A DNA stretch of 64,000 nucleotides from the NCBI GenBank assembly GCA_015179125.1, contig WHVA01000029.1, positions 310,001 through 374,000 on the forward strand, read 5' to 3'. The number at the start of each line of letters is the position of its first letter. The stretch's first letter is position 1. The DNA comes from Gautieria morchelliformis (Eukaryota > Basidiomycota > Agaricomycetes > Gomphales > Gomphaceae). Both the position numbers and the translations under genes were made by a program. This document shows positions 18,202 through 64,000 of the stretch, piece by piece. The notes under the pieces are model-generated. The model ran no database searches and had not been told where the DNA came from. It was given only the letters and a program-made list of their open reading frames with translations.

Positions 18202-18261
18202 GAAGATCAAGCTCATAGGACGACCCCACACACTTTTCTTAACCAGCCTTCATCTCAGCCT

Positions 18262-19368
18262 ATGGCAGACCAACTCCCAGACGCATACTGGGACGCCCTG
18301 GGTGACCATGGGCCATTCCTTCGAGGCCTCCTTTCCAGCCAAGCACAGCAGTTGCAGCAACTTCAACTGCAGAATCAGGAACTGCACAATCAGATTGCTA
18401 ACGTTCACGACCACTTAGCCAATGCTGCCACCAACGCTGCTGTTGCTGCTGCTCAAGCCCTTGCGCCCTCGGTACCTCACAGTGTCCCTCCATCTACTCG
18501 CTCTATCAAAGCAGCAGAACCGGAGAAGTTCAATGGAGACCGTGCAGAGACTGAAGGGTTTATCAGGTCTATCAAGTTGTCCATCGCTGTCCAGCCAGCA
18601 TCCTTCCCAGATGAACGCACAAAGATCCTATACGCTCTTTCCTTCATGACGGGAGGCTCTGCGGAGATATGGGCACACAACGAGACACAGGCTGTCATTG
18701 ATGGCACCTCCTCTATATCCACTCTGGAGGGGTTTATTAAACGTGTGGAGGAGGCCTTTGGTGACCCAGATCGTGCCAGAACGGCTCGCACTAAGCTGCA
18801 TGACCTTAGGATGGCGTCAGGAATGTCGGCAGATGAATACACGGCTCAATTTGAGATCCTGGCAGGCAGGACAGGCTTTAATGATGAGGCACTCGAGGAT
18901 GCCTATGCTCGTGGCCTTCCAGCAGGTATCCTTGACAAGATCCACGCCCAGCCCTTTCTTCCATCCAACCTCAAAGCCTGGAAGGAAGCAGCCTGTCAGA
19001 TTGACCGCAATCATCGCCGTCTGTTAGAGGTCAGGAAGGCACAGACACCTCATGTCCCTAATCGCCCTCCTCCTGCCCGACCACTCCACACTCCTGCTAT
19101 GGCTCCTGTTGCCACAGCATCACCCAGTAACGCGACACCTATGGACATTGACTCATCCCGCCGCCGCACCGAAACACGAACCTGCTACAACTGTAAGAGA
19201 CCTGGTCACATTTCACCAGACTGTCCTGAACCTCGCAAGCCACGAATCCGTGCAAACCTCACAGAGGCAGACATTGCAGCAATTGTCTCTAAATCTGTAG
19301 CAGCGGCGATAGAGGAACGCAAAGAGAAGGTGGAAGCCCCTGTCCAAGAGGAAGGAAAGGGTTTTTAG
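18262..19368 (+). CDS. gag: Gypsy Gag polyprotein
   Basis: 368 residues from the ATG at 18262; the frame is open upstream into the LTR, but this is the first ATG with a plausible leader. A glutamine-rich stretch near residues 30-50 may form a coiled coil. The central region is the retrotransposon Gag domain. A CCHC zinc knuckle, CYNCKRPGHISPDC, lies near residues 312-325. The protein should assemble the particle and bind element RNA. Pol starts 20 bp after the Gag stop in another frame; such elements are known to use frameshifting or reinitiation for Pol. It looks intact. Confidence 0.9.
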   Translation: MADQLPDAYWDALGDHGPFLRGLLSSQAQQLQQLQLQNQELHNQIANVHDHLANAATNAAVAAAQALAPSVPHSVPPSTRSIKAAEPEKFNGDRAETEGFIRSIKLSIAVQPASFPDERTKILYALSFMTGGSAEIWAHNETQAVIDGTSSISTLEGFIKRVEEAFGDPDRARTARTKLHDLRMASGMSADEYTAQFEILAGRTGFNDEALEDAYARGLPAGILDKIHAQPFLPSNLKAWKEAACQIDRNHRRLLEVRKAQTPHVPNRPPPARPLHTPAMAPVATASPSNATPMDIDSSRRRTETRTCYNCKRPGHISPDCPEPRKPRIRANLTEADIAAIVSKSVAAAIEERKEKVEAPVQEEGKGF

Positions 19369-19388
19369 GCCAGTCAGCGGTGAAAGAC

Positions 19389-33700: not shown

Positions 33701-34962
33701 CGCACATCGAATCAGTAGACATCTCGAACGCCTATCTTAATGGAGTACTAGGTGACGATGCAAATATATACATGGATCAGCCGGAGGGATACCACCAAGG
33801 AAGTGAAGACTGGGTATGTAAACTGAAGAGAGGAATCTATGGTCTCAAACAAAGCGGAAGACTGTGGTACGAGAGGCTTGGGGCCGCACTGGAAAGCATA
33901 AGCTTCAAACATCTCCAATCCGACCCGAGCGTTTACATTTGGGCGAGCGGCACCACAAAGATTGTCATCCCTGTTTTCGTTGATGATCTAACCCTAGTAT
34001 CGAACTCCAAACAGGATCTCGACCGAGTAAAGAACGAACTCGCCAAGATATTCAAGTTGAAGGACCTAGGAGAAACGACATCGCTATTGGGAGTGGAAGT
34101 AAACTACAACTGCTTGAAAAGGACGCTGAAACTATCGCAAAAACAATACATACAAGACATCCTAAACCGTTTTCACATGATGGAGTGTCGCCCAGTTTCA
34201 ACACCCATGACTCCTGGCCTGAACTTGAGCTCAGCGATGGGTCCATCAACCCCAGAAGAAGTCGAAGAAATGCGGAACACACCGTACCTAAACACAGTCG
34301 GCGCGCTGAATTATCTCGCTATAGCGAATCGCCCCGACATTGCATACACCGTCGGATGTCTTGCCCGTTTCAACTCGAACCCCGGTCCCACCCATTGGGC
34401 CGCCGTGAAGCACCTGCTGCATTACTTGAAAGGAACCATGGATCTAGCACTCACCTTCGCCCCCAATGACTTGACTGAGACATTCCAAATGTGGACGGAT
34501 GCTGATCATGGCGGGAACTTAGATAATGGCAGGTCGACCTCTGGATTCCTCACAAAGATCGGGACAGGAGCTATCAGTTGGGCTAGCAAACTGCAAAACA
34601 TCGTCACCCTCTCCACAATGGAAGCAGAGTTCGTAGCGGCAACCCTAGCCGGAACTGAAATCATGTGGTTACGGAACCTGTTCGAGGAACTCGACTCGAA
34701 GATCGAGAAGCCGTGCTACCTCTACATAGACTACCAGTCCGCCTTATCCGTAGCGAAAAACCCCAAGCACCATGGCCGTATGAAACACCTCGACCTTAGA
34801 TTCTTCTGGTTACGGGAGAAAGTCGCACAGAAAATAATTCAATTGAAGTACGTATCCACAAAGGATATGCCGGCGGACCTCTTAACAAAAGCATTGCGAT
34901 GGAGCGGCATAGGCATGCCATGGGACTTTTCTAACTGGGAGATTGCCTGCGTGAGGGGGGTG

Positions 34963-35132
34963 TGTCGTTATCTGTCGATTAGTCAGCTCCCAGTAGCTAC
35001 ATAGCAGCTGATTTCGAAGTTGGAATCTTGTTGATTCCACCTTCGAACTCAGGTACGTGCACGCTGTCATCCTATGTAGAAGATAATAGGAAACTCACTC
35101 GTTGATTCCACCTTCGAACTCAGGATCTGACA
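34963..35132 (+). repeat. 3' LTR of the copia element, longer than the 5' LTR
   Basis: 170 bp. Same tips as the 5' LTR, but the word GTTGATTCCACCTTCGAACT occurs twice with about 43 bp of unrelated sequence between, accounting for the extra length. Confidence 0.85.
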
Positions 35133-41589: not shown

Positions 41590-44187
41590 CTGACAGTATA
41601 AGTGACATGCAAAGACACATGCAGGAGCGAGCAAAGGAGAACCAAGCTCAACAAGAAAACATAGAGGGTGTTGTCTGGCTAGGGGACTTCAATTGCCACC
41701 ATCCCACGTGGGACGAAGAATGCAATGCTCACCTGTTCACTCGGAGCAACCTTGATGCGGCACAAGTACTCTTGGAGGCTACCACTGAGCATGACCTCCA
41801 GATGGTACTCCCCAGGGTGATACCCACCCTATGAGCCATGGCAACAGGAAATCACACAAGGACTGACAACATTTTCATCTCTACCGCTCTACTCAAAAGG
41901 CTAATCACATGTTCGACAGTGCCAGAAGACATGCCTGCAACAAGTGACCATTTCCCAATAGATATGTCAATCGACGTGTCCTTTGCACCGCCAGCTACCT
42001 ACCAAAAGCCAACTATAGGGAGGTGGACTGGAAAGCCTTCATGGAAATCCTGAGGTTGCGCCTGAGGGACAGCATCGACGAGCCGACACCCACCAGCAAG
42101 AGTGTTTTCTGCCACAACTTGGAAAAGATTACGAAAGCTATAGTGTAGACGGCAGAGGAGCTAGTACCTAAGACTAAGCCGTCCCCTTATATGAAAAGGT
42201 GGTGGTCTCAAGAACTAACCAGACTCAGGACTAGCACTAGAAGCCTGGGCAGGAAAACCTACATGCGACAAGCTGATCCGACGGATGGAGGGCATGAGGA
42301 ATATAGAAATGCCAGGAACAAAAAGCTACACTGGGATGCTTTTCTGGAAGAAATAGACAAAGAAACTGTCTGGACAGTGCACAGGTACGCATCAGGGGAT
42401 GTAACTGACGGGGGACGAACTAGGGTCCCAACCCTCACGACAAAGCACGAAGATGGCACTAAGTGGGTGGCCAGCACAAATGACCAGATGGCAGAAATGT
42501 TATTCAACATGTTCTTCCCAAAGTCCAGAGCAGAGGCAAGTCAAGCTCAAGCGAACTTCAAGTACCCCCTGCCCGCTTTCGATTTCCAGCCCATTACTGA
42601 TGACCAGATCCAGCGAGCAGTAGATAAACTCAACCCCTTCAAAGCGCCTGGGGTCAATGGTATCCCCAATATCATCATCAAGCAGTGCATTGACATGCTT
42701 TTGCCATTTATAGGGCCTCTCTACAGAGCCATGTTCAGTCTCAACATGTACCCACCTGAGTGGAGAGACTAGTCACAAAGGTGCTCAGGAAGCCAGGAAA
42801 GCTTGACTACACTGTACCCGGCGCGTACAGGCTGATAGCTCTCCTGGACACAATAGGGAAGATTCTCTCAGCTTGTGTAGCAGAGGACTTGGTTAATATG
42901 ACTGAAAAGTACCAACTCTTGCCAGACAATCATTTCGGGTGCCGACCTGGAAGGACAACCACTGATGCGCTACACTACACCATAGCGGCAGCAAAGAACG
43001 CATGGAGACGGGGTAGGGTTCTGGGGGCACTCTTCTTAGACATAAAAGGTGCTTTCCCAAGCATTCAGCTCAAACAGCTGGTACACGATAGGCACCACAG
43101 GGGAATACCTGAGGAATACACCAGGTGGATCCATGGTAGGGTAGAGGGCAGAAAAATGGTCGTCAGTTTTGACGACTACAGCATGCAAGCCATGCCGGTG
43201 GAGCAAGGGATGGACCAGCTGTACCTGGTATCAGCAATAGCTTACCAGTTCTACAATGCTGACCTGCTTGAAGTAGTGCAGCAGGAAAACAAGGAAGGCT
43301 GCGTAGGATTCGTCGATGACACCACGCTCATAGCTGAAGGAGTGGACCTCAAGGTGGCCTTCAACAAGCTGGCGGAAATCTTGACAAGACCCGGAGGAGC
43401 TATCAAATGGGCCAGCACGCATCAATGTGATTTCGCAGTCGAGAAGTTTGGGCTCATGGTTACAAGACACAGGGAGAAGGACCCCTTCAACGTCGAAAAG
43501 ACCAAGCCAACAGTGAGGCCAACCATACAGATTGGGGCACACTGCATACAGCGAACCAGCACCCATAAATTCCCAGGAGTCATCATACACCAGGAATTGC
43601 ACTACATGGAGCAGGTCAACTATGCACTCAAAAAAGGAGAAAGGTACATTGCGCAGTATAGAAGGCTGGTGAAGCCAACAAAAGGGGTATCAGCTAAGTA
43701 CATGTGCAGATACTACCTGACAGTTGCAATACCAAAGTTGTTGTATGCGGCTGACATATTCCTTGTACCAGAGTCCAAATGCATGAAAGGGACGAAATGG
43801 TACATAAACAGGCTGGCGAGGATTCAGCGACAGGCGGCCCTCATGATAACGGGGGCCATGTGAACCACAGCAAATGACGTACTAGATGAACATGCCAACC
43901 TCCTTCCCTTCCCACTCATAGTAGCTAAACTGCTACACAGAGCCGCAATAAGAATTACATGCCTGCCAGACACACACCCTTTAGCCCCAGAAGTACGAAG
44001 GGCAGCCAAGAGGTACGTCAAGCGACATTGCACACCTCTGCACAAATTACTACACGCCTTCGACCTCCAACCAGGCAAATGGAGAAGATCAGGATGGCAA
44101 CACGTGAGCCCAAGTGGGCCCCCGCTTTCAAGATGTGCATCCCAGCAAACAAGGCCCAAGCAGCAGAGGAGAATGACGCTGAGATTG

Positions 44188-47988: not shown

Positions 47989-48663
47989 TCAATTGTTACA
48001 ACCATGCATTTCCAACTTCCGCCACTCAGTTCCGCTCACATTCTGACCCTCTGATAGTTCCAATATTCCACCCCTTGTTTTATTCTCTTTTTCTTTTGAC
48101 TCTATTACTCAGACCCACCGGACTCGACTCACAGCACAGCAAGACCATATGTCCGGCCCTCTTTGGAGTCTCGTTGTTTCTTTCTATCAGATATACTTTC
48201 CGACCCCTTGTTCTTTTGCCAATGTTTTACCCTACCCTGAACCCCCCTTGTAGTCCCCTTGTTCCCAATTAGTTAGTTACCCCATATGTCTATCCGACTT
48301 CCGCTCCCTCCGGAATTTGCTTAGTACTACACCATTACATGTTGTCTCAGCTCTTTGTATAAAAGCCCCTCATGTATGCCCGTTATTCTGCAATCAGATA
48401 GTCACCTTTGATATGTGATTTCCTTCACTCTATCTCCTGTTCTTAGCACAGCGAGTTTTGCAAGACCTCTGCCTCTCCACCTTCCGCCTTCCGGCTCAGC
48501 TTCCCAACTCAAGTTCCAACTTCCATTTAGTTCAATACTTTCCGACTTCTGACTCATGAGCCAAAATACTTAGGATAATAGTTCATTGGGGGCACAACAT
48601 ATAAGTTGAAGCCCTTGTCCTTTCTGGTTCCGACTTGTGGAAATCTCTATACATAACCTCAAT
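47989..48663 (+). mobile_element. Solo LTR, family D, forward copy
   Basis: LTR 47994-48658 (665 bp), TGTTACAACC to ACATAACC, flanked by TCAAT on both sides (47989-47993, 48659-48663). Has a TATAAAAG box near 48357. The reverse complement of this family is found at 50732-51360 and 58960-59639, and in part at 62136-62687. Confidence 0.85.
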
Positions 48664-48850
48664 TCTAAACAGCTACCAGTATGGGCACTACTAGCTGCTG
48701 ATCACCTTCCAATTATGGTATCTTCTGTATTACACTATATGAAAGCGCCTCGGTGGGTTGTGGGCGTCACTTATGTCAGGTTTTAGGTCATCAGTTTGTC
48801 AGCGGCACGCGAGCGGCGCAGCCGCGAGCCAAGAACGCTGCGCAGCATGG

Positions 48851-48999
48851 TCACGTGACCATTTGCGTTCCAAATTAGGTCAGCGGCGAGCGGCGCAGCC
48901 GCGAGCATAGAACGCTGCGCAGTGGTCACGTGACCCGTTCGCGACCAGAGCGCACATACGCGAGCGTGGTCCGTGCACGACATGCGCCCGCGGTATAAA
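48851..48999 (+). promoter_or_regulatory. Putative promoter of Helitron unit I
   Basis: Two TCACGTGA palindromes (48851-48858, 48926-48933), a GTCCGTGCACGAC word, and TATAAA at 48994-48999. The same order recurs in units II and III, and in unit IV with the palindrome altered. Confidence 0.6.
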
Positions 49000-49929
49000 G
49001 GCCTAACGGTAAGGAGGGAACGCCAGGAACCTGCCCAACCGGCAATTCCTGTGTCTGCTGTCTGCTGTCTGCTGTCTGCTGTCCCTTTAGCTGGCTGGCT
49101 GTCTATTGCTTTGGCTGACTGGCTATCTATTGGCTTGGCTGGCTTTCTATTGGTAGGTAATATCTTTTTTTGATGCATTGCCATGTATTTTATTTTATTT
49201 GTGTTGGTAATTTTATTGGTTCCTTTTTTTTTCATCATATAGTATTGTCACATGTGCATTATATTTTTGTGATTTTTTTCGAAATTTGATTTAAATAACT
49301 GCAGAAAAGAATGTTTTTAATATCAATATTTTTCAGGTTTTTTTCGAAAATTGACATCAATAAGTTTCCTCTAAAATTAATGACAATAGGTTCTGCTTTT
49401 AAATCTGGTTTGTTTTATTGTTTTATTGACTGTAAAGCTGCTTACCTATACTGGTGGCTGGCTTACTATGGCTTTGGCTGGACTCTGGGTTTCTCTGTCA
49501 GTCTCTGGGCTTCTCTGGCTTTGGCTGGGCATTAATAACAGCTTCTGCTTCAATGTACTGTACTTTTTTGACATTTTTTCGCAAATAGATATCAATAAAT
49601 TATCCTGACTTTGTGAAAATTGACAACAGCTCCAGGTTAAATGTGCAGTGCATTTTTTTGACATTTTTCGCAAAATAGATAATCCTAACTTTGCTAAAAT
49701 TAATAACAGCTTCAGCTTACATGTACTGGACATTTTCTTGACATTTTTTCGAAAAATAGGTAATCCTGACTTTGCTAAAATTAATGACAGCAGCTGCTTA
49801 AATATGGTTTCCTTGACTATTTTATTTATGTCTGTATATGTCACAAAATATATATTGATACATGTCCCTGACTTTGCTAAAAGTTAACAAGTAGTAACAG
49901 CCTCTGCTTGCTTCACTTTGAGGCCCTTG

Positions 49930-50720
49930 GGGATATACTACGCATGTTGAGGGGCATGCTACACACACTATGCATGGGGACACGCATGTTATGCGTGGAG
50001 ACATGTTATGCATGGAGACACGCACGCTATGCTTGGGGACACGCATGCTATGTGTGGAGACACTCATGTTATGCATGGAGACACACATGTTATGCGTGGG
50101 GACACACACGCTATGCTTGGGGACAAGCATGCTATGCATGGGGACACACACGCTATGCTTGGGGACACCCATGTTATGCGTGGAGACACGCATGTTATGC
50201 ATGGGGATGTGCACACTATATGTGGGGACACACTATGCTTGGGGGACACGGTACAAACAAGGGACACACTATAGGGGAAAACACTACAAACAAGGGACAT
50301 TCTACACATGCTATACTTGGGGGACATGTTATGCATTGGGGACACACTTTGCACACTATGCTTGAGGGAGATGCTACACACACTACATGTAGGGACATGC
50401 TACACATGTGGACACGCTATGCATGGGGGACACACATGCTATAATTTAGGGACATGCTACACACAAAATACTTGAGGGACATGTTATACATGTGGGACAT
50501 GCCATGCACACTGTACTGCATGTGGGGACACACTACATATGGAGACATGCTACATGTTGAGACATGCTACATGTGGAGACACACTACGCACACTATACTT
50601 GGGGACACACTACGTGTGGGGACATGCCACATGTGAGGATGCAATACATGTGATGACACACTACAGGCAAGGACACACTACATGTGAGGTAGGGGACATG
50701 AGACATGGGAGAAATGTGTA
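49930..50720 (+). repeat. 21-bp minisatellite of Helitron unit I
   Basis: Unit close to ACACGCATGTTATGCGTGGGG, with variants toward the 3' end that break the register. Frames stay open in several phases because 21 is a multiple of three. Confidence 0.85.
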
Positions 50721-50726
50721 GAGTTA

Positions 50727-51365
50727 TTACCTGTTATGTATCAGGTTTGGATCTAAAAGGACTGCAGCTTCAACTTATATGTTGCACCCCCAACTATCAT
50801 CCTAAGTACTTTGGAGATCTGAGATTGGAAGTTGGAAGAGGTTGAGTATTGTAACTGAAGTAGTAAGGGTTCAAGAATTGAGTTAAGTTGGATATGAGAA
50901 ATCAAGTTGGAAGACGGAGGTCAGAGAGACAGAGGCCTTGCAGGTCTAAGAACCGGAGGGAGTCACGTATCAAAATCGATTATCTGATTGCTGAACAGAG
51001 GCACACATGACTGGGTTTTATACAAAGAGCTGAGACAACGTGTCAGAAGGCAGAGGTAAGCAATTCCAGTGCAAGTAACTAGGATAAATGTACCTAATGC
51101 GAAACAAGAGGAACTACAAGGGGGTGCAGTGTAGAACTAAGAACAATAGGCAAAAGACCAAGGGTCTAATTGGTAGCGGAACAAATGGAACTCCTGACGC
51201 TCTGGACTTGCTGTGCTGAGGGCCAAGTATGGAATGCTGGTGAAAAGAGTCATAAGGGAAATATGTGAAGAACAAGGGGATCACAAGGTTGAAGTGCAGA
51301 CATTGTGGAATAGAGTCGGAGGTGCGGGGGTACCGGAGTTGGTTGAGCATGGTCATAACATTACC
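50727..51365 (-). mobile_element. Solo LTR, family D, carried in Helitron unit I
   Basis: LTR 50732-51360 (629 bp) with TTACC on both sides (50727-50731, 51361-51365). Reverse orientation relative to 47994-48658. The same LTR sits at the same place in unit III, and unit IV shows the uninterrupted site at about 61968. Confidence 0.9.
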
Positions 51366-51537
51366 TACCTTGATGTGTTATTTAGAGTTACTTTCAATCA
51401 ATAAGAAGAGTTTTACTTATCTGAATGAAATTTTCTTATCCGAATGTGTTTGACTTATCCCAAGTTTGATTCACCCAATGTGTTTGACCTTGCTGATGCG
51501 TTTGACCTTACCAAGGCTTTTGACCTTACCGAGGTGT

Positions 51538-54500
51538 CAGAGAACATGCGGGTGAGAAATGACCCTGACAGAGCCCGGTTTGCAGAATGGCTGCAGAATG
51601 TGGGTCAGGGAAAGGATCTCCCACGAGATCATACCTTCTCACTCCCTCAACACATGGTTTGTGGCCCTGGAATTGCAGAGCTGATCCGGGAAATATACCC
51701 TGGCATTGGCAATGCAGTCACCATGACTGCCAATCCAAAGTGGGATGAGATAGTGGCTGAGTTGCTCCCTGGACAAACTGCTCAGGACAGACCTGACCTG
51801 GTGTCGCGGGTGTTTCACCTCAAAAAGAAATACCTCATTGACTTGATCGTCAAGGACAAGATCTTTGGAGAAACTGTCGCTCGCGTTCACACTATTGAAT
51901 TCCAGAAGAGGGGGCTCCCACACATGCACCTGCTTATCTGGTTTGGTAGGGAGTCCAAGGTCAAACATCCACATGAGGTGGATTCTATGATTTCAGCAGA
52001 GTTCCCTGATCCAGAGACACATCCTGTGCTCTACCAGTTGGTCTGTGAGCTGATGACACATGGTCCCTGTGGACAAAGGAATCCAAACGCACCCTGCATG
52101 GAAAATGGCAAGTGCAAGAAAAACTTCCCAAAGCCATTCTGTGAGGAGACCGTTGTGAATGTAGATGGATATCCAAAATATCGTCATCGCAATGATGGAA
52201 GGCTGCACAATGTCAGAGGTGACATGCTGGACAACAGATGGGTTGTGCCATACTCTCCTCTGCTCTTGCACAAACTCCGGTGTCACATCAACCTTGAATT
52301 CACCTTCAGTGTGAGGTGCGTCAAGTATATCCACAAGTATCTATACAAGGGCCACAATCGGACCACCATGGAGTTTGGTGTCGACCATGATGAGATAAAG
52401 AAGTACCTGGACGCTCGCTATGTCAGTGCTCATGAGGCCTGTTGGAGGTTGCTGGAGCGGGAAATCCACACCCAGGTGCCTGCAGTCATGGCACTCCCAG
52501 TCCATGAAAAAGACCAGCAATCAGTCGTTTTCAATCCTGATGCTGATCCGCTCACCATCATGAACAGGGTCGAGGGGTCAAAGACAGCGCTCATGGCTTA
52601 CTTTGAGGCCAATGCTGCCTACCCTCATGCACGCGATGTGCTCTATGTGGATTTTCCTGAGCATTTTACCTGGAAAAAAGAGGAAAGGGTATGGACACCA
52701 CGTCAAAGGGGATATAGCATTGGACGCCTTCACTTTGCAAGCCCAAAATCAGGAGAGAGATTTTATTTGTGCACTCTCCTCACGGTGGTCAAGGGGGCCA
52801 GATCCTTTGAGGAGCTTAGGATGGTGGATGGCATACAATGTGCTACTTACAAGGAGGCCTGTCTTGCCAGGGGACTTCTGGAGGATGATCAGGAGTGGAG
52901 GCTGTGTCTCCAGGAAGCCAGTGGCATGAAAACAGGTGCTCAGCTCAGACATCTCTTTGCCACCATCCTTGGTCATTGCATTCCCTCACAACCTGACAGA
53001 CTATGGGACGCCTTCAAGGAGCACATATGTGATGATCTCAGACACCGGCTCCAAGTCAGACACAATATCCAGGAGCCACGGGATGATCAGGTCTATGATT
53101 TTGGCCTCTTTCTCTTGGATAAACTCCTTCAGCATAATGGAATGTCCTTGAGCAGCTTTAAAGATATGCCTGGGTGGTAGGCGAGTGGGAGGTCCTGATT
53201 GGAAACAGGTTCATAGCTGAGCAGAGGGACTATGACCCTGTTCAAGAGAGGCAGATGGCTGATGAGGAGGTTCCCAAGCTGAATGAGGGGCAAAGGTCTG
53301 CGCATGATCAGATATTACGGTCGGCACTGGACATAGATGCTCAGGGAAACCTAACGGACAAATGTTTTTCGTCACTGGCTCAGGGGGCGCTGGGAAATCA
53401 TTCACATGGAACACCCTAATCCACTCCTGTAGAGCGGAGAGTCTCATTGTGCTTGCTGTAGCCTCATCTGCAATGGCTGCACTTATCCTCACTAATGGGA
53501 CAACCTCTCACAGCATGCTTGGAATTCCAATTCCTGTCCATGAGGGCTCTCTCTCCTCCATCAAAAAGAACTCTGACCAGGCTGATATGCTGAGACTGGC
53601 CAGGCTCATCATTTGGGATGAGGCTGCAATGCAGCATCACCATGCCATAGAGGCCATTGACAGGACACTGAGGGATTTCCTTGACCAGCCTGACCGACCC
53701 TTTGATGGCATCACGGTTGCCTTTGGAGGTGACTTTCAGCAGACTCTCCCAATTGTCCCCAAAGGCTCCAAGGAGGATATCGTGGGAGCTACCCTTCAGA
53801 AGTCATATCTGTGGCCAAAGATCAAGGTCCTCCATCTGACAGAGAACATGCGGGTGAGAAATACCCTGACAGAGCCAGGTTTGCAGAATGGCTGCAGAAT
53901 GTGGGTCAGGGAAAGGATCTCCCACTAGATCATACCTTCTCACTCCCTCAACACATGGTTTGTGGCCCTGGAATTGCAGAGCTGATCCAGGAAATATACC
54001 CTGGCATTGGCAATGCAATCCCTGCCCAGGACAATTATTTCTTGGAGCGGGCCATCCTCTGTCCAGAAATACTGAGGTCAATGAGATCAATTCAATGGTG
54101 TTGAGGCAGTTTCCAGGTGATGCTCAGGTCTTCCACTGTGCAGATTTTGTCAAGGAAACCGACTTTGCAGAGCAGTATCCTGTGGAGTATCTGAATTCCA
54201 TAGAGATGGGCAGTCTTCCTCCTGCTCACTTGGAAGTCAAGCCTGGAGTGCCTCTGATGATGTTGCGCAATTTGGATAAGAAGCAAGGACTATGCAATGG
54301 GACAAGGTTGCGGTTGGTGAGGATAAGCATTAGAGTCTTGGAGGTCAGGATCATCTCAGGTCCACGTGCAGGAAATACTGCTTTCATCCCCAGGATCACT
54401 ATTTCACCATCAGAGGGAGAATTACCATTTGTGCTGCAGAGGAGGCAGTTTCCAGTGCGTGTGGCATTTGCAATGACCATCAACAAGTCTCAGGGACAGT

Positions 54501-54666
54501 CTTTGGTACGGTTGGGCTGGACCTGAGATATCCAGTGTTTGGACATGGTCAGTTGTATGTTGGTGTTTCAAGGGGAACAAGCTGGAACAAAGTGAAGGTC
54601 TTGCTTGAGGAGGGTTTGAACACAACCAACATTGTATATAAAGATGTATTACTTAGAGCTCCTTGA
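51538..54666 (+). pseudogene. Helitron RepHel (HUH replication initiator plus Pif1-like helicase), broken and rearranged
   Basis: A 578-codon frame (51444-53180) begins in tail repeats, crosses a duplicated piece of helicase (51538-51717), then enters Rep at TMTANPKWDEI. The HUH motif reads RGLPHMH (near 51915), followed by the conserved CGQRNPNAPCM and KYIHKYLYKGH. Helicase follows in shifted frames: Walker A GSGGAGKS (about 53378), Walker B LIIWDEA (about 53605), GGDFQQTLP, ENMRVRN (53842) and the end [12 protein letters not shown]. The gene stops at 54664. Frame shifts lie near 53175, 53360, 53862, 54070 and 54510, so the helicase is inactive. The Rep half is open. The Helitron N-terminal domain is missing. 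Confidence 0.85.
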
Positions 54667-54789
54667 TTTCTGATATCTACTTGATGCAAATTGATTACTT
54701 TGATTTCCCCAATGCACTTGACCTTACTGATATGTTAGACTTACTGATGCATTAGACTTACTGATGCCTTTGACCTTACCGAGGCGTTT

Positions 54790-54827
54790 GACTTGCACCC
54801 CCGCGCTTCGCGCGGGTATCCACCTAG
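54790..54827 (+). other. Helitron 3' terminus of unit I
   Basis: Hairpin CCCGCGC-TTC-GCGCGGG at 54800-54816, then TATCCAC and CTAG ending at 54827. The loop is the reverse complement of the GAA loop found in the other four termini. Confidence 0.9.
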
Positions 54828-54975
54828 TCTAAGAGTGAAACGGGGGCAGTGGGTTGTGGGCGCCGCTGACTAATAATGTTACGTAAAAATTAGGTCAGCG
54901 GAGCGAGCGGCGCAGCCGCGAGCCCTAGGCCCTGGCCCAGGCCAGACCATTGATGCTGCGCAGCAGCGTCCCAGG

Positions 54976-55048
54976 TCACGTGACCGGTTCACATTTGTCG
55001 CGACCATACGCGAGGGTGGTCCGTGCACGACCCTTCGCTCAGTATAAA
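54976..55048 (+). promoter_or_regulatory. Putative promoter of Helitron unit II
   Basis: TCACGTGA at 54976-54983, GTCCGTGCACGAC, and TATAAA at 55043-55048. Confidence 0.6.
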
Positions 55049-55689
55049 GAGAGCGATGCTGCAGCACCACACCCCCACTGGTGTCTTCCTGTGTTCTGGC
55101 TGTACTGGTGGGCTTACTATTGCTTTGGCTGGGCTCTGGGTGTCTTGTGTGTGTCTCTGGGTGTCTCTGGGCTTCTCTGCCTTTGGCTGTGAATGACACC
55201 AGCTTCTGCTTCAATGGCCTGTATATTTTTTAAATATTTTTTCGCAAATAGCTATCAATAAACCTAACTTGCTAACCTTAACAGTAAGCCAACTTATATA
55301 TCTGTACATTTTTCGATATTTTTCGCAAATAGACATCAATAAATGCAATTTGCTGACCTCATAACAGCCACTTAAATATCTTTACATTTTTTTGACATTT
55401 CTTCGCAATGGATTCAACCACTTCTTTGCTCAAGTTAATAACAACTTCTTGTTTTACTGTAGTGTGTTTTTTTTTATCTTTTGTTGAAAAATAAGTATAG
55501 ATATCAATAATTATCCTGACTTTGCTAAAATTATACCAGCTTCAGGTTCATGTACTGTACATTTTTTGACATTTTTTCAAAAGGTAGATATCAATAAATT
55601 ATCCTGACTTTGCTAAAATTAATGACAACAGCTGCTTAAATGTGGTTTCTTTTGCTATTGTATATATGTCACAAAATAGATACTGATAC

Positions 55690-56010
55690 ATGTCCCTGAT
55701 ATGTGTGAGGACACATTACGTTTGGGGACATGCACCTGTGAGGACACGTTACGTGTGGGACATGCTACTGTGAGGACACGTTACGTGTGGGGACACGCTA
55801 CCTGTGAGGACACGTTACAGTGGGGACAGCTGCTGTGGGACACGCTACCTGTGAGGACACGCTACTGTGCGGACACGCTACCTGTGAGGACACGTTACGT
55901 GTGAGGACACGCTACCTGTGAGGATCGTTACGTGTGGGGACACGCTACCTGTGAGGACACGTTACATGTGGGGACATGGTACCTGTGAGGACACGTTACG
56001 TGTGAGGACA
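55690..56010 (+). repeat. Minisatellite of Helitron unit II
   Basis: Alternating half units GTGAGGACACGTTACGT and GTGGGGACACGCTACCT, about 17 bp each, with several indels. Related in words, but not in register, to the 21-bp arrays of the other units. Confidence 0.8.
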
Positions 56011-56753
56011 TGCTATCCAACTGCACTTTGGGTCTTCCCCCATTTCTGATTTTGGTATTGTTTCTGGTTCTGTGAGAGTGTCACCGGAGGATCAGCTGGC
56101 ATATCGATATAACCACATTGTCAAAATTCAGGATCCCAAGATCACTATTGGATCTATTTCACAATGCACAAGCTTTGAAACCTGTGGATTATGACAATAG
56201 GTGCAATCTTACCGAAGCGCGTTCCATTTTCAATCAGCCCTTTAGTAAGAATACTAAGAGTAATTGGTGGTGTTGCATAGTATAGTAGTCACTCAAAGGC
56301 CTAGCAGAGTCCTATTTCTTCGAATCTCTGATGATTCAGTCAAGGCTATTACCACTTTCATGTCTAGAGTCGCTGGAGGCCCATCCCAGAGGTCGAGAGA
56401 GAGCTCTGCATGTTCGGCTGTTCCATGGGTGCATACATGATTCATGATACTATATGATCAGGGATATATTTGCATGATCCTATTTACCCCAATGCACTTG
56501 AACTTACTGATTCACTTGACCTTGCTGATTCACTTGACCTTACTGATTCACTTGACCTTACTTATGCATTTGACCTTACCAAGGCGCTTGACCTACACCC
56601 CCGCGCGAAGCGCGGGTACCACCTAGTCTAAGAGTTAAACGAGCACGGTGGGTGGTTGTGGCGCCGCTGGACAAATAATGTTACGTAAAAGTTAGATCAG
56701 CGGAGCGAGCGGCGCAGCCGCGAGCAATGAACGCTGCGCAGCAGCGTCCGCGG

Positions 56754-56808
56754 TCACGTGACCCGTTCGCGCGTGGTCCGTGCACGACACGCGCGGGCGG
56801 TATATAAA
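56754..56808 (+). promoter_or_regulatory. Putative promoter of Helitron unit III
   Basis: TCACGTGA at 56754-56761, GTCCGTGCACGAC, and TATATAAA at 56801-56808. Confidence 0.6.
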
Positions 56809-57849
56809 GGCAGTTCGGTAGATGGAACGACAGGAATCTGCCTGACCTGCCAATTCATCTCTCTGCTCTCTGCTGTGTCTGCTCTCTGCTCTGTCTGCCG
56901 TCTGCTGCGCTGTCTGTGTCTTGAGCTGCCGCTGTCTGTTTTCTTTAGCTGTCTGTTTTGGTTTCTTTAGCTGCGCTGGTCTGTGTCTTGAACTGCGCTG
57001 TCTGTGTCTTGAGCTGCACTGTCTGTGTCTTTAGCTGCGCTGTCTGTGTCCTGAGCTGCGCTGTCTGTTTCTTTAGCTTGCGCTGTCTGTGTCTTGAGCT
57101 GCGCTGTCTGTTTCTTTAGCTGTGCTGTCTTATTTCTTTGAGCTGGCTGTCTATTGGCTTCACTGGCTTTGTATTGGTAGGTCTTCATTTTTTTTTTTTT
57201 ATACCACTGAAATGTATTTTAATTTTTTTATTTGGAATTTTATTATTTTTCACTTTATAATTTTGTGAAATTTTTCAAAAATATATTTAAATAATCCCAA
57301 GACTTTGCTGAAAGAAATGTATTTTAATATAGATATTTTTCAGGTTTTTTTTTCGAAATTGACATCAATAAGTTCTTCTAAAATTAATGACAATGAGTTT
57401 GCTTTTAAATGTGGTTTGTTTTGTTGTTTTATTTACTGTAAAGCCGCTCACCAGGCCTCCTCTCTGGCTATACTGGTGGCTGGCTTACTATTGCTTGGCT
57501 GGGCTCTGGGCTTCTCTGGCTTGGCTGGGCATTAATAACAGCTTCTGCTTCAATGTACTGTACTTCTTTGACATTTTTTCGCAGATAGATGTCAATAAAA
57601 TATCCTGACTTTGTGAAATTGACAACAGCTCCAGCTTAAATGTACTGGACATTTGTTTTGACATGTTTCAAAAAATAGATAATCCTGAGCTAAAATTAAT
57701 GACAGCAGCTGCTTAAATATGGCTTCCTTACTATTTTATTTATGTCTGTATATGTCACAAAATAGACATTGATACATGTCCCTGAGTTTGCGAAAAGTTA
57801 ATGATAAGTAACAGCCTCTGCTTGCTTCACTTTGAAGCCCTTGGGGATA

Positions 57850-58930
57850 TGCTACACATGCCATTGGGACATGCTATGCATGGGACAGGCATGTTATGCA
57901 TGGAGACACATATGTTATGCGTGGAGACACGCATGTTATGCATGGGACAAGCATGTTATGAGTGGAGACATGCATGTTATGCGTGGGACACGCATGTTAT
58001 GCATGGGGACACGCATGTTATGCGTGGGGACACGCATGTTATGCGTGGGGACACGCATGCTATGCTTGGAGACACGCATGTTATGCGTGGGGACATGTAT
58101 GCTATGCGTGGGGACATGCATGCTATGCTTGGAGACATGCATGTTATGCATGGGGACACGTATGCTATGCATGGGGACATGCATGCTACATGTGGGGACA
58201 CACTATTCTTGGGGACAGACAGGCTATGCATGGGGACACACACGCTATGCATGGAGACATGCATGTTATGCGTGGAGACATGCATGTTATGCGTGGGGAC
58301 AAGCATGCTATGCATGGGGACACACACACTATGCTTGGGGACACCCATGTTATGCGTGGAGACATGCATGTTATACATGGGGACGAGCATGCTATGCATG
58401 GGGATGTGCACACTATATGTGGGGACACACTATGCTTGGGGGACACGGTACAAACAAGGGACACACTACAGGGGAAAACACTACAAACAAGGGACATTCT
58501 ACACATGCTATACTTGGGGGACACACTACAAACAAAGGACATGCTATGCACACTATACTTGGGGGACATGTTATGCATTGGGGACACACTTTGCACACTA
58601 TACTTGAGGGAGATGCTACACACACTACATGTAGGGACATGCTACACATGTGGACACGCTATGCATGGGGGACACACATGCTATAATTTAGGGACATGCT
58701 ACATTTGGGGACATGCTACAAACCAGGGACATGCTACACACAAAATACTTGAGGGACATGTTATGCATGTGGGACATGCCATGCACACTGTACTGCATGT
58801 GGGGACACATATGGAGACATGCTACATGTGGAGACACACTACGTGTGGGACATGCTACATTTGAGGATGCAATACGTGTGATGACACACTACAGGCAAGG
58901 ACACACTACATGTGAGGTAGGGGACATGAA
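57850..58930 (+). repeat. 21-bp minisatellite of Helitron unit III
   Basis: Roughly two dozen 21-bp units near 57885-58440, then more irregular units with the words GGACATGCTACACA. Open frames of 268, 284 and 300 codons overlap on the plus strand and shorter ones on the minus strand; they encode seven-residue repeats and are by-products of the period. Confidence 0.9.
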
Positions 58931-58954
58931 ACATGGGAGAAATGTGGAGAGTCA

Positions 58955-59644
58955 TTACCTGTTATGTATCAGGTTTGGATCTAAAGGGACTGCAGCTTCA
59001 ACTTATATGTTGCACCCCCAACTATTATCCTAAGTATTTTTGAGATCTGAGATTGGAAGTTGGAAGAGGTTGAGTATTGTAACTGAAGTAGTAAGGGTTC
59101 AAGAATTGAGTTAAGTTGGATATCAGAAATCGAGTTGGAAGGCAGAGGTCAGAGAGACAGAGCCTTGCAAGTACTTGCTGTGGTAAGAACAGGAAACAGT
59201 GCAAAGGGAGGCAAGTCAATCATCTGATTGCAGAACAGAGGCACACATGACTGGGTTTTATACAAAGAGCTGAGACAACATGTCAGAAGGTAGAGGTAAG
59301 CAATTCCAGTGCAAGCAAAAGTGACTAGGATAAATGGAGTACGTAACTAATACGGAACAAGAGGAGCTACAAGGGGGTACCGGGTAGAACTAAGAACAAT
59401 TAATAGGCAAAAGAACAAGGGGAATGTGGGTCTAATTGATAGTGGAACAAATGGATCTCCTGATGCTCTGGACTTGCTATGCTAAGGGTCAAGTAGGGAA
59501 GGCCGGTGAATAAAGTCAAAAGGGGAAGTATGTGAATAGTAAAGAACAAGGGGATCAAAAGGTCAAAGTGTGGACGTTGCGGAATAGAGCCAGGGAGGCA
59601 TGGAGGTACCAGAGTTGGTCAAGCAGCATGGTCATAACATTACC
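58955..59644 (-). mobile_element. Solo LTR, family D, carried in Helitron unit III
   Basis: LTR 58960-59639 (680 bp), TTACC on both sides. Identical insertion site to unit I, so one insertion event was copied with the Helitron. Confidence 0.9.
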
Positions 59645-60043
59645 TACGTTGATGTGTTACTTAGAGCTACTTTCAATCAATAAGATGTGTTTGACTTATC
59701 TGAATGAAATTATCTTATCCGAATGTGTTTGACTTATCCCAAGTTTGATTTACCCAAGGCTTTGACCTTGCTGATGTGTTTGACCTTACCGAGGCATTTG
59801 ACTTGCACCCCCACGCGAAGCGCGGGTATCCACCTAGTTACACTATATGAAAGCGGCTCGGTGGGAGGTTGTGGGTGCGCTGACAAATGCTGACCAATGC
59901 TTGGTCATTAGTTTGTCAGCGGAGCGTGCGAGCGGCGCAGCAGCGAGCCCCTGGCCCTATCACCGGTTTACGCCGGTCTGCTGGCTCCAGGTCTCTTTAG
60001 GTCAGCGGCGAGCGGCGCAGCCGCGAGAACACTGCGCAGCGGT

Positions 60044-60097
60044 CAGGTGACCCCTTCGCGCGTGGTCCATGCACGACACGCGCGCGCAGTATATAAA
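60044..60097 (+). promoter_or_regulatory. Putative promoter of Helitron unit IV
   Basis: TATATAAA at 60090-60097 with the same upstream GTGCACGACACGCGCG context. The palindrome is altered to TCAGGTGA. Confidence 0.55.
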
Positions 60098-61089
60098 GGC
60101 AGTTTGGTAGGATGGAACGCCAGGAATCTGCCCGACCGGCAATTCCTCACTCTGCTGTCTGCTCTCTCTGCTGTGTGCTGTCTGCTGTGTCTGCTGTCTG
60201 CTGTGTCTGTGCTGTCTGCTCTCTGCTCTGTCTGCGCTGTCTGCTGTCTGCTGCTCTCTCTGGTGTCTCCTCCTTTAGCTGGCTGGCTGTCTATTGCTTT
60301 GCCTGGCTGGCTATCTATTGGCTTGCCTGGCTTTCTATTGGTAGGTAATATCCTTTTTTTAATGCATTGCCATGTATTTTATTTTATTTGTGTTGGTAAT
60401 TTTATTGGTTCCTTTTTTTTCCTCACATAGTATTGTCACATGTGCATTATATTATTGTGATTTTTTTTTCGAAAATAGATTTAAATAACATCCAAAGACT
60501 GCTGAAAAAAATGTATTTTAATATCAATATTTTTCAGGTTTTTTGCGAAAATTGACATCAATAAGTTTCCTCTAAAATCAATGACAACAGATTCTGCTTT
60601 TATTTACTGTAAAGCCGCTTACCAGCCACTCCTCTCTGGCTATACTGGTGGCTGGCTTACTATGGCTTTGGCTGGGCTCTGGTTTCTCTGTCAGTCTCTG
60701 GGCTTCTCTGGCTTTGGCTGGGCATTGATAACAGCTTCTGATTCAATGTACTGTACTTTTTTGACATTTTTTCGCAAATAGATATCAATAAATTATCCTG
60801 ACTTTGTGAAAATTGACAACAGCTCCAGGTTAAATGTGCAGTGCATTTTTTTGAAATTTTTCGAAAAATAGATAATCCTAACTTTGCTAAAATTAATAAC
60901 AGCTTCAGCTTACATGTACTGACATTTTCTTGACATTTTTTCGAAAAATAGGTAATCCTGCTTAAATATGGTTTCCTTGACTATTTTATTTATGTCTGTA
61001 TATGTCACAAAATAGATATTGATACATGTCCCTGAGTTTGCGAAAAGTTAATAAGTAGTAACAGCCTCTGCTTGCTTCACTTTGAGGCC

Positions 61090-61960
61090 CTTGGGGATAT
61101 GCTATGCATGCTATACTTGAGGGGCATGCTACACACACTATGCATGGGGACATGCATGTTATGCATGGAGACATGTTATGTGTGGAGACATGCATGCTAT
61201 GTGTGGAGACACTCATGTTATGCGTGGGGACACACACACTATGCTTGGGGACACACATGCTATGCATGGGGACACGCATGTTATGCGTGGGGACATTCAC
61301 GCTATGCTTGGGGACACCCCTGTTATGCGTGGGGACAAGCATGCTACGCATGGGGACACACACGCTATGCTTGGGGACACCCATGGTATGCATGGAGACA
61401 GGGGACAAGCATGCTATGCATGGGGATGTGCACACTATATGTGGGGACACACTATGCTTGGGAGACATGGTACAAACAAGGGACACACTACAGGGGAAAA
61501 CACTACAAACAAGGGACATTCTACATGCTATACTTGGGGGACATGCTACAAACAAAGGACATGCTATGCACACTATACTTGGGGGACATGTTATGCATTG
61601 GGGACACAATTTGCACACTATACTTGAGGGAGATGCTACACACACTACATGTAAGGACATGCTACACATGTGGTTACACTATGCATGGGGGACACACATG
61701 CTATAATTTAGGGACACGCTATGTTTGGGGACATGCTTCAAGCATGCTATGCATGTGGGACACGCCATGCACACTGTACTTGGGGACATGCTACATGTGG
61801 AGACACACTATCCATGGAGGACATGCTACGCACACTATACTTGGGGACATGTTATGTGTGGGGTCATGTTACAAACCAGGGACACAATAAGCATGCTATA
61901 TTTGAGGCTATGCATGGAGGACATGCTATGCACGCTATACTTGGGCACATGCAGACATGT
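61090..61960 (+). repeat. 21-bp minisatellite of Helitron unit IV
   Basis: Same unit as in units I and III, fewer clean copies. Confidence 0.85.
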
Positions 61961-62132
61961 GTAGAGACATTACCTATCTTTATGTGTTACTTATAGGTAC
62001 TTTCAATTGAAATGAGATGTGTTGTACCTATCCCAAGTTTGATTTACCCAATGTGTTTGACCTTGCTGATGCATTTGACCTTACCAAGGCGTTTGACCTA
62101 CACCCCCGTGTGAAGCATGGGTATCCACCTAG

Positions 62133-62853
62133 AGGTAAGGGTTCAAGAATCGAGTTAAGTTGGATATCAGAAATCAAGTTGGAAGGCAGAGGTCAGAGAG
62201 ACAGAGGCCTTGCAAGTACTTTCTGTGGTAAGAACAGGAAACAGCGCAAAGGGAGTCACATATCAAAGTCAATTATCTGATTGCAGAACAGAGGCACACA
62301 TGACTGGGTTTTATACAAAGAGCTGAGACAACATGTCAGAAGGTAGAGGTAAGCAATTCCAGTGCAAGCACAATTATCTGATTGCAGAAGTAACTAATAC
62401 GTAACAAGAGGAAATACAAGGGGGTGCTGGGTAGAACTAAGAACAATCAATAGGCAAAAGAACAAGGGGAATGTGGATCTAATTGATAATGGAACAAAGG
62501 GATCTCCTGATGCTCCGGTCTTGCTATGCTAAGGGTCAAGTACGGAAGGCTGGTGAATAGAGTCAAAAGGGGAAGTATGTGAATGGTAAATAACAAGGGG
62601 ATCAAAAGGTCAAAGTGTGGACGTTGCGGAATAGAGCCAGAGGAGGCATGGAGGTACCAGAGTTGGTCAAGCAGCATGGTCATAACATTACCTACCTTGA
62701 TGTGTTTTACTTATCTGAAAGAAATTTTCTTATCCAAATGTGTTTGACTTATCCCAAGTTTGATTTACCCAAGGCGTTTGACCTTGCTGATGCATTTGAC
62801 CTTACTGAGGTGTTTGACTTGCACCCCCGCGCGAAGCGCGGGTATCCACCTAG
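62133..62853 (+). mobile_element. Helitron unit V, partial
   Basis: Starts inside a family D LTR (matching 59090 onward), continues through the LTR tip at 62687 and TTACC, then subterminal repeats, hairpin CCCGCGC-GAA-GCGCGGG and CTAG at 62850-62853. The 5' part is missing, so unit IV may have inserted into this copy, or the junction arose by recombination. Confidence 0.8.
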
Positions 62854-63124
62854 TCTAAGAGTTAAACAAGCACGGTGGGTGGTTGTGGGCGCCGCTTACA
62901 AATAATGTTACATAAAAATTAGGTCAGCGGAGCGAGCGGCGCAGCCGTGAGCCCTAGGCCCAGGCCCAGCCCAGACCGACCGGTCTCTGGGGCTTGCTGG
63001 TACACCGCTGGGTGACCTGGCAGACGCTGCGCAGCCGGTCCCCTCTGCCCTCCTTCTACCACCATCCCATCCCATCCCATCCCTCCCACCACTTGCATCC
63101 CTTCCATTAACATCCTATCTAGGT

Positions 63125-63560
63125 TCTTTCTGGTGAGTTTGATGCTACTGAAACTGCCTTTTTATGTTGGTTATTTATAATTTCGCTTTTTTGGCCTTTT
63201 TTAGGCACTGTTCAAGTGATATTTGTCCTGTCACTGGTGCACTGAGTACCTGGGTGTTTCTGGTGAGTGTTATGCTGTTGTATCTGCCTTTTCCTGATGC
63301 TTATTGTGTTCTTATTTGCTATAATTTCGCTTTTTTGGCCTTTTTTAGGCACTTTTCAAGTGACATTTGTCCTGTCACTGCTGCACTGAGTACCTGGGTG
63401 TTTCTGGTGAGTGTTATGCTATTGTACCTGCCTTTTCTTGATGCTTATTGTGTTCTTATTTGCTATAACTTTGCTTTGTTGGCATTTTGTAGGCACTTTT
63501 CAAGTGCATTTGTCCAGTCACTACTGCATACCCTACCTGGGTATTATCCCCTTTCTGGTA
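63125..63560 (+). repeat. Tandem units each holding a possible small exon
   Basis: Three units of about 130-150 bp. Each has TTCTGGTGAGT (donor-like), a CTATAATTTCGC-type stretch, TTTTTAG or TTTGTAG (acceptor-like), and GCACTTTTCAAGTG up to GGGTGTTTCTG. The putative exons are about 58 nt. They contain in-frame stops in some phases and may be untranslated leader exons. Confidence 0.6.
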
Positions 63561-63718
63561 CGTTTTTGTAACTGTATCTGCTATTTGCAGTATGTATATT
63601 AGGATCAGTGGCTTTGCAATCCGTCTGAGATACCCGCACAGCCTGTTTTCCCTGAGTTTGCCTTAGTCTGCTTGCAATGTAAGTCTGATATTGATATCTT
63701 TATCCTCTCTCTACTCTT

Positions 63719-64000
63719 ATGCCTGCATTTCTCAGGGATCCATCTACCCCAGAGAGCAACCGTCGGCGGGTGCGTGAAAGTGCGAGGGAGGGGCAGGAGG
63801 TGATGACACCACCCAGTCATCGGAGAGCGCGCCGGAGAGCGCATATTGGAGCTCAGAACCAGCCACCCCCTCCACCACCGCCTTTTGCCATCCCTCACCC
63901 TCCTTCTAGAAGCAGTGCAGCCGATCCTTTTCAACAACCTGTGGCAGGGCCATCACTTGCTCCTGATCCCAGTCCTACAGAGCAGGTGGCAGCCCTTCAT
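63719..64000 (+). CDS. Start of a possible Helitron RepHel protein (partial)
   Basis: An ATG at 63719 opens a frame of 94 codons that runs to the window edge without a stop. The product begins MPAFLRDPSTPES, is arginine-rich (NRRRVRESARE, HRRARRRAH), then proline-rich (a run of seven prolines), as is usual for the disordered N-termini of large fungal Helitron proteins. A splice acceptor lies nearby (TTTCTCAG, ending at 63736), so translation could instead enter at the GGATCC exon start from an upstream exon. No catalytic domain lies within the window; the assignment rests on its place in a Helitron unit. It could be an unrelated captured gene. Confidence 0.5.
   Translation, partial: MPAFLRDPSTPESNRRRVRESAREGQEVMTPPSHRRARRRAHIGAQNQPPPPPPPFAIPHPPSRSSAADPFQQPVAGPSLAPDPSPTEQVAALH

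Follow-up and report, generated by a model that had tools for sequence, protein, structure and literature searches.

Head-to-tail Helitrons have been reported from several genomes. At the maize r1 locus, two adjacent, unlike Helitrons lie with the CTAG of one directly before the TC of the other, creating a novel G/T junction; this was attributed to consecutive insertions, and both orders were proposed, with a newcomer entering at G|T behind the resident or at A|T at the resident's 5′ end, the order being called unclear (Du et al. 2008, PMC2267711). Perfect head-to-tail Helitrons of the bat Myotis were interpreted as tandem repeats (Pritham and Feschotte 2007, via PMC2267711 and PMC5876387), and tandem Helitrons are cited more broadly for bats and plants (PMC2267711, PMC5148889, PMC5876387). 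Work on Fusarium and Metarhizium describes a copy 2 bp upstream of the partial 5′ end of another and a single tandem of three copies; several elements there carry multiple 5′ termini, joined-end circles are supported by evidence and insertion into the 5′ end is named as one possibility (PMC5148889). Maize Helitrons prefer sites close to others of their kind (Yang and Bennetzen 2009, as cited in PMC12477314 and PMC3288121), copies in a mushroom study often land in regions with other Helitrons (PMC4289320) and new insertions in wheat prefer AT dinucleotides (PMC13286980). Here we describe a Helitron array in a 64,000-nucleotide stretch of the Gautieria morchelliformis genome (contig WHVA01000029.1, positions 310,001 to 374,000; C326:310001-374000 in our searches), hereafter the window. 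We consider it likely that separate Helitron insertions built up the chain one by one, each newcomer landing exactly at the 5′ terminus of a resident.

The array occupies the end of the window and reads entirely on the forward strand, with CACCTAG ends at 54827, 56626, 59837, 62132 and 62853, all five as listed in the original prediction. Four of them (54827, 56626, 59837 and 62853) directly abut a Helitron 5′ end, again as predicted: the base after CTAG opens TCTAAGAG (A-type) at 54828, 56627 and 62854, and TTACACTATATG (B-type) at 59838, without a spacer. Unit I (48730-54827; 6098 bp) is a Helitron that begins with a B-type TTACACTATATG end after an A and ends in CTAG, meeting unit II at CTAG|TCTAAGAG (54824-54835). 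Unit II (54828-56626; 1799 bp) and unit III (56627-59837; 3211 bp, containing a solo long terminal repeat (LTR)) both open with A-type ends and are joined at CTAG|TCTAAGAG (56623-56634). The junction CTAG|TTACACTATATG (59834-59849) leads from unit III into unit IV (59838-62853; 3016 bp), which has a B-type 5′ end, and CTAG|TCTAAGAG (62850-62861) leads on to the A-type unit VI (62854-64000 in the window), which extends beyond the window. No CACCTAG 3′ terminus of unit VI occurs up to contig position 376500 (locus L099, 2.5 kb past the window).

The terminus at 62132 was rejected as a unit boundary. It is followed by AGGTAAGGGTTC, part of the solo LTR and not a Helitron 5′ end, and the same LTR follower recurs in 7 of 72 3′-like ends in the first 68 loci. 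This weak hairpin plus CTAG (62105-62132), fused to a truncated LTR, is an inherited, bypassed internal terminus rather than a junction, and probably a product of read-through. The array should therefore be read as units I, II, III, IV, with the fossil terminus inside the last of these, and VI.

The same junctions recur throughout the genome. The genome-wide search that the original prediction called for, made in an assembly of 122 Mb in 1113 contigs, returned 355 exact A-type junctions (CCACCTAG|TCTAAGAGT) and 168 exact B-type junctions (CCACCTAG|TTACACTATATG), while reversed-pattern controls for both junction 17/20-mers gave 0 in the same 122 Mb, which excludes chance as the source of the 355 + 168 occurrences. 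We listed the places of 100 of the 355 and 100 of the 168 junctions and extracted the first 30 of each. The same 5′ ends stand at positions not after G in 110 A-type and 87 B-type cases, and the base before them is A in 93 of the 100 A-type ends listed (of 110) and in 83 of the 87 B-type ends. The joined share is thus about three quarters for A-type and two thirds for B-type ends, both figures being approximate as the patterns differ slightly; moreover, 3 of 30 fetched A-type ends not after G follow short stubs of another 5′ end behind CTAG. Assembly stacking is unlikely as a general cause, judging from the base-exact joins of unlike elements and from listed places on many contigs. Two duplicate pairs occur among the 70 junctions contained in the loci (L022/L025 and L048/L050), all on contigs C101 and C122. 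The original prediction had allowed that a junction might occur only once through a segmental duplication; the junction counts and the comparison of 53 junctions given below exclude this.

Two further candidate junction classes were tried and dropped. The TACACTATATG variant of the B-type end is not a frequent junction, with 1 match. A third 5′ family among CTAG-TA ends was also rejected: the 7 matches were of several kinds, and 18 of 20 fetched 3′ ends chosen as CTAG-T-A/G continue into DNA unlike a Helitron 5′ end. The count of 136 outer 3′ ends is impure, since 2 of 20 fetched (L102 and L115) precede 5′-end remnants; these two were left out of the outer 3′ set. Other arrangements were seen at single places. 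At L143 (C604:267458-267497), the exact partner of a young B-type 5′ end is a Helitron-like 3′ end of another kind, CGGGTCTATTGGCTAG, so that stacking seems to cross 3′ families. At L145 (C656:47680-47770), an inverted TTCCTATAGG-type 5′ end lies head-to-head beside a partial young 5′ region, and at L166 (C511:23974-24020), TAGTGTAATATAGTGTAA behind the CTAG of a 6.1-kb copy resembles two inverted B-type 5′ stubs.

Neighbouring units are not copies of one element. The complete units of the window range from 1.8 to 6.1 kb; units I, III and IV are of different lengths and match in parts at 78-88% identity, and neither unit II nor the visible 1.1 kb of unit VI has a match of more than 150 bp to the other window units. 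For the genome, we compared 53 junctions, drawn from the two pattern searches in the order of their lists, with at least 1.4 kb on both sides and with the duplicates L025 and L050 removed. Among these, no pair was alike on both sides at 95% or more. In the comparison of the 70 junctions in the loci, from which L001 and L008 were left out, the next best pair after the C101/C122 duplicates reached 97% and 93%. Exact CTAG|T joins between unlike elements, as in the maize stack, are therefore what the window and the sampled junctions contain, and neighbours that are copies of one element, as expected of a concatemer, are not.

The order of arrival is a statistical question, and several comparisons indicate a polarity. 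Across the 53 junctions, the left 1.5 kb were alike (at least 97% over at least 1.2 kb) in 39 pairs, the right side in 2 and both sides in 0; twin pairs involved 16 of 53 junctions on the left and 4 of 53 on the right (p = 0.005). Near-identical twins were found for 10 of 26 outer A-type 5′ ends and for 2 of 25 inner ones (p = 0.019), so the scarcity of right-side twins is not due to 5′ ends being unable to be alike. We regard the twin evidence on A-type 5′ ends as moderate. Median terminal branches (FastTree) were 0.4-0.6% for outer and 1.7-2.2% for inner 5′ ends, and by rank the outer branches were shorter at the first 200, 300 and 450 bases (p = 0.012, 0.044 and 0.024), so that outer 5′ ends look the younger. 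This test used 31 inner ends, some from similarity search and the window, and 25 outer ends; the outer 5′ set excludes the stubs L073, L079 and L089. L084, in which the filter met a chance CCTAG in other DNA, was excluded from the branch and subfamily set and kept in the twin count.

The 3′ ends fall into two subfamilies, TACCC and TATCC. TACCC makes up 15 of 18 outer 3′ ends, which run into other DNA, and 23 of 64 inner ones (p = 0.0004); the count omits L001, L008, L025 and L050 (window copy, overlap, duplicate contig) and the 3 of 67 inner 3′ ends that belong to neither subfamily. Inner TACCC ends differ from the consensus by a median of 3 changes in 60 bases, as against 1 for inner TATCC ends (p = 0.0005). 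We take TACCC to be the older subfamily on this divergence, although substructure could produce the same difference.

We then compared how often young 3′ and young 5′ ends are joined, using the best 40 of 1326, 1102 (unit I 5′ end), 1420 (unit I tail) and 460 (C529 5′ end) candidates from similarity searches. One of these searches (best 40 of 1326) was given no tally of its own, its query having contained 13 junction bases. With the last 400 bases of unit I, the best 40 of 1420 were the window copy and 39 others at 97-98% identity. These tails are followed by an A-type end in 20 cases, an A-type end after a 2-nt spacer in 1 (C359), a B-type end in 5, other Helitron-like 5′ ends in 11 (L122-L124 and L126-L133) and something else in 3 (L120, L121 and L125), so that 36 of the 40 young 3′ ends join 5′-end-like sequence exactly. 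One young 3′ end type thus precedes A-type, B-type and several further kinds of 5′ end. Followers and preceding stretches were classed by eye, the 11 others by their likeness to known 5′ ends (T...TATAG..GAAAGC.GC.CGGTGGG); they include three nearly identical TCTATAGTATAAAG and four sharing TTCCTATAGG.

Young 5′ ends behave differently. The 5′ end of C529 gave 39 distinct matches (88-100% identity, from the best 40 of 460; C122 was omitted as a duplicate of C101, and a weak 41st row was left out), of which 17 stand at an exact CTAG junction. The remainder follow a spacer of 2-3 bases (3), lie inside another copy's terminus (4) or a Helitron interior (2), have an inverted neighbour (1) or adjoin other DNA (12). 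Joined 3′ ends (36 of 40) thus exceed joined 5′ ends (17 of 39; p = 1e-5), and the difference persists when the 24 closest 5′ ends alone, 10 of them joined, are set against the 3′ ends (p = 8e-5). The 5′ end of unit I (best 40 of 1102) gave 13 exact junctions, 1 with a TA spacer, 15 not after G and 11 that coordinates left unresolved, that is, 13 joined among 29 resolved (p = 9e-5 against 36 of 40). Fifteen copies could be tracked from the 5′ match to a 3′ end 6.1-6.8 kb away: 8 are joined at the 3′ end only (C529, C802, C295, C178, C142, C782, C360 and unit I of the window), 1 at the 5′ end only (C604), 5 at both ends and 1 at neither (C511) (p = 0.039 for 8 against 1). The 5′ side of C295 and C782 lies in, or 2 bases behind, another copy's end.

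Several results weigh against entry at the resident 5′ end, or weaken the case for it. Pooled twins, with inner ends allowed to match outer ones, give 13 of 26 versus 6 of 25 (p = 0.08). Mean branch lengths hardly differ at 300 bases and run the other way at 450, and divergence does not separate outer from inner 3′ ends of subfamily TACCC (p = 0.93). Counting spacers and matches inside termini as joined reduces the contrast between young ends to 37 of 40 versus 24 of 39 (p = 0.0012), and leaving repeated followers (the three TCTATAGTATAAAG and the four TTCCTATAGG) uncounted lowers the young 3′ figure to 33 or 29 of 40 (p = 0.0004 or 0.012). The 17 of 39 young 5′ ends that are joined to CTAG also count here; they imply that newcomers often entered junctions already in place, or that units were often added afterwards. 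A strict age order along arrays was not seen from the subfamily labels that could be followed. Close to resident 3′ ends, CTAG|TA|TTACAC occurs 3 times and CTAG|TA|TCTAAG once (by coordinates), and 2 of 39 young copies (L148 and L161) stand in GGTA|T of 3′ ends (GGTA|TTACAC). Some junctions could thus be 3′-directed at G|T.

Off-centre insertions are also found at resident 5′ ends. At L073, CTAG|TTACACTA|TCTAAGAG records an A-type copy that entered an A|T lying eight bases into a B-type 5′ end. Such events should leave CTAG|TATGAAA on their other side, and this sequence has 7 exact matches, the two sides not being paired with one another. At L079, L089 and L140, 5′ stubs (TCTAAGA, TCTA and TTCCTATA) immediately precede a complete 5′ end of their own type, much like the multiple 5′ termini described for Fusarium Helitrons (PMC5148889). 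Resident 5′ and 3′ termini both attract insertions, and the exact junctions need not share one origin; the comparisons above indicate that the 5′ side dominates.

Entry at the resident 5′ terminus could proceed as follows. The incoming form would probably be a circle with its ends joined as CTAG|T, and Rep bound to the resident terminus would direct its insertion. The resident 5′ boundary is itself an A|T target, because the resident begins with T and entered after a host A. It is also the place at which the Helitron Rep is modelled to nick at the outset of transposition. In the simplest account, the circle joint is exchanged with a nick at this boundary. The 3′ CTAG of the newcomer would then be joined to the first T of the resident, and the 5′ end of the newcomer to the sequence that had stood before the resident, be it host A or the CTAG of a neighbour that arrived earlier. 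Repeated rounds would build spacerless head-to-tail chains in which the 3′-most unit tends to be the oldest. Since the CTAG|T of an array junction has the same sequence as the circle joint, Rep should accept it as well, which would explain insertions between existing units. Such a scheme draws on three described properties: Helitron circles with CTAG joined to TC form and are active transposition donors (PMC4778049), Helitrons insert at A|T sites (PMC5876387) and the HUH relaxase TrwC inserts DNA at its own nic site where a copy of it, in oriT, is resident (PMC3264647). We advance more tentatively, and do not quite favour, the broader idea that Rep uses resident 5′ termini of several types as a preferred, base-exact integration site, an HUH counterpart of site-specific integration, with the family stored in growing ordered stacks that largely spare other DNA.

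The closest competitor places newcomers directly behind the resident CTAG, at a non-canonical G|T site. It yields the same junction, insertions near 3′ ends are observed, and the single maize pair examined by polymerase chain reaction (PCR) permits and indeed fits 3′-side insertion unless one copy had excised (PMC2267711), a further point against the 5′ side. If young copies were the favoured targets, most young 3′ ends would likewise be found joined. Yet 3′-side insertion predicts that the right-hand units are the youngest, and right twins are rare (2 pairs versus 39), while right-hand units have longer median terminal branches than outer 5′ ends. It also predicts young outer 3′ ends, which instead belong mostly to the more diverged subfamily. 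We consider this explanation unlikely as the general one. Of the two mechanisms offered in the original prediction, repeated insertion next to CTAG therefore holds as to repeated insertion, and the insertion point shifts, with the evidence favouring the resident 5′ end and its regenerated A|T.

The other mechanism, rolling-circle read-through past the terminator laying down several copies, fares poorly as the maker of junctions, as does integration of a circle multimer. Either would yield perfect CTAG|T junctions, read-through has been proposed for bats and plants (as cited in PMC2267711, PMC5148889 and PMC5876387), and read-through as such probably occurred here, at the bypassed inner terminus of unit IV; that product, though, terminates in an LTR and not in a 5′ end. 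Both predict one element on the two sides of a junction, whereas the window units differ in length and sequence, one 3′ end type meets several 5′ types and none of the 53 junctions has a partner alike on both sides at 95% or more, which makes this account highly improbable. The shared 3′ and 5′ subterminal sequences would permit homologous crossing-over with a circle, or multiplication of pairs by unequal crossing-over, and identical junctions do exist on contigs C101 and C122. A circle crossover, however, also places the circle's own two ends at the junction, and young tails, whose full-length copies mostly start as B-type, precede A-type or other non-B 5′ ends exactly in 31 of 40 cases (best 40 of 1420). 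Because both ends of one element are expected at the junction and are not seen, concatemers, circle multimers and homologous circle recombination are all disfavoured; unequal crossing-over would leave junctions alike on both sides, of which the C101/C122 duplicates are the sole sampled examples at 95% or more. We give crossing-over marginally less credence than read-through. Least probable of all is an effect of assembly or survival, in which insertions occur everywhere and those in Helitron-rich DNA alone survive or assemble in this form. The assembly does lie in 1113 contigs, and a survival bias favouring repeat-rich DNA is plausible, but such a bias gives no base-exact landing: at the 0.070 AT sites per base of the window, a 3-kb unit offers about 200 such sites, and still 36 of 40 young 3′ ends abut a 5′ terminus.

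The elements that make up these stacks have several features of canonical Helitrons (Helitron1). Unit I carries Rep and PIF1-type helicase frames, both degenerate: a Rep-like open reading frame (ORF) at 51444-53180 on the forward strand matches Helitron_like_N in part (PF14214, profile positions 116-191 of 191, E = 3.7e-27), and two overlapping ORFs at 53362-54526, also on the forward strand, contain helicase pieces (PF05970, E = 2e-59; PF21530, E = 1.5e-16). The unit VI region in L099 holds an 833-codon frame, open at both ends, with a full-length Helitron_like_N (PF14214, E = 6.9e-58). Rep (HUH) and helicase are thus both present, with PF14214 in units I and VI and the two helicase domains in unit I. 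Where canonical Helitrons begin with TC, the A-type 5′ ends start with TC and the B-type ends with TT. Insertion between A and T, judged from flanking bases, agrees with the A found before 93 of 100 and 83 of 87 listed ends, and these bases do not fit the TT or TTTT-T/C insertion of Helitron2 or Helentron elements. The 5′ ends of different types share, by eye, a subterminal GAAA.CG.GC..GGTGGG-like stretch, and this could serve as a common recognition site for all of them. As a candidate for the asymmetric terminal inverted repeats of Helitron2 or Helentron elements, unit I has a 9-bp inverted match, CGCCTCGGT, that links its 5′ and 3′ regions but is short and may be due to chance.

The 3′ ends likewise conform to the canonical CTRR preceded by a hairpin, with CTAG at all five places and stems of unequal strength. 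The predicted hairpins fold well in units I and II and at 62853 (-9.6 kcal/mol, z -3.5 to -3.8); those at 59837 (z -1.4) and 62132 (z -0.7, with G-T pairs) are weaker, so the claim of five hairpins stands in full for three of them. The 7-bp stem lies 11 nt from the 3′ end in unit I and at 62853, and 10 nt in unit II. In unit I (54800-54816, forward strand) the loop is inverted, TTC for GAA, with the stem kept, as the original prediction had noticed, and the same change recurs in L049 and L118; a template switch within the palindrome would give such an inversion.

A solo LTR (TGTTATG...CATAACA) lies inside unit I at 50732-51360 with TTACC on both sides, recurs at 58960-59639 in unit III and is truncated at 62135-62687 in unit IV, all on the forward strand. 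It occupies matching places in units I and III, and the LTR seems to have inserted once and then to have travelled and multiplied along with the Helitrons. A suspected inverted LTR copy at 48000-48620 was not recovered by BLAST at 1e-10. Minisatellite-like blocks of the GGGGACACGCATGCTATG type occupy 49940-50700, 57850-58900 and 61100-61950 in units I, III and IV, respectively, and give rise to long spurious ORFs in several frames. Elsewhere in the window, at 12536-15018, 18124-23279, 30750-35004 and 42191-43863, long ORFs resemble proteins of Ty3-, Ty1- and long interspersed nuclear element (LINE)-type retroelements, as labelled by eye.

Head-to-tail Helitrons are already known; what distinguishes the present case is their density, the mixture of families and the polarity. 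Within the Helitron literature searched, in which subscription papers fall mostly outside coverage, we met no earlier report of hundreds of exact junctions or of an order test. The choice between concatemer and consecutive insertion, and the newcomer's side, was left open for the single maize and Fusarium-relative cases (PMC2267711, PMC5148889). Hundreds of base-exact junctions in one genome turn the question of order into a statistical one, and they point to the resident 5′ end. If Rep does treat resident termini as integration sites, there would be a simple reason for A|T junctions and for 'Helitrons near Helitrons', and the same reason would explain why some elements carry several 5′ termini and why stacks cross families. 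The resident 5′ end is a short sequence that can be tested as a landing site.

Set beside the described systems, the present array most resembles the maize r1 pair, with which it shares the exact CTAG|T between unlike neighbours; unlike that one pair, whose order was left open, more than 500 exact junctions here allow a test of order and favour the 5′ side (PMC2267711). The Myotis tandems, as cited, have the same perfect head-to-tail junctions, whereas neighbours in the present genome are unlike (PMC2267711, PMC5876387). The Fusarium and Metarhizium Helitrons differ in having Helitron2-like termini and in being isolated cases, and we met no order test in the available text (PMC5148889). The preference of maize Helitrons for one another is cited as a neighbourhood tendency (PMC12477314, PMC3288121), and here the association is base-exact and polar. 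The nearest enzymatic parallel to the proposed Rep is TrwC, an HUH enzyme that joins incoming DNA at a resident copy of its own nic site; TrwC is a bacterial conjugation enzyme whose activity was demonstrated in the laboratory, whereas the corresponding role of Rep in these stacks is read from sequence (PMC3264647).

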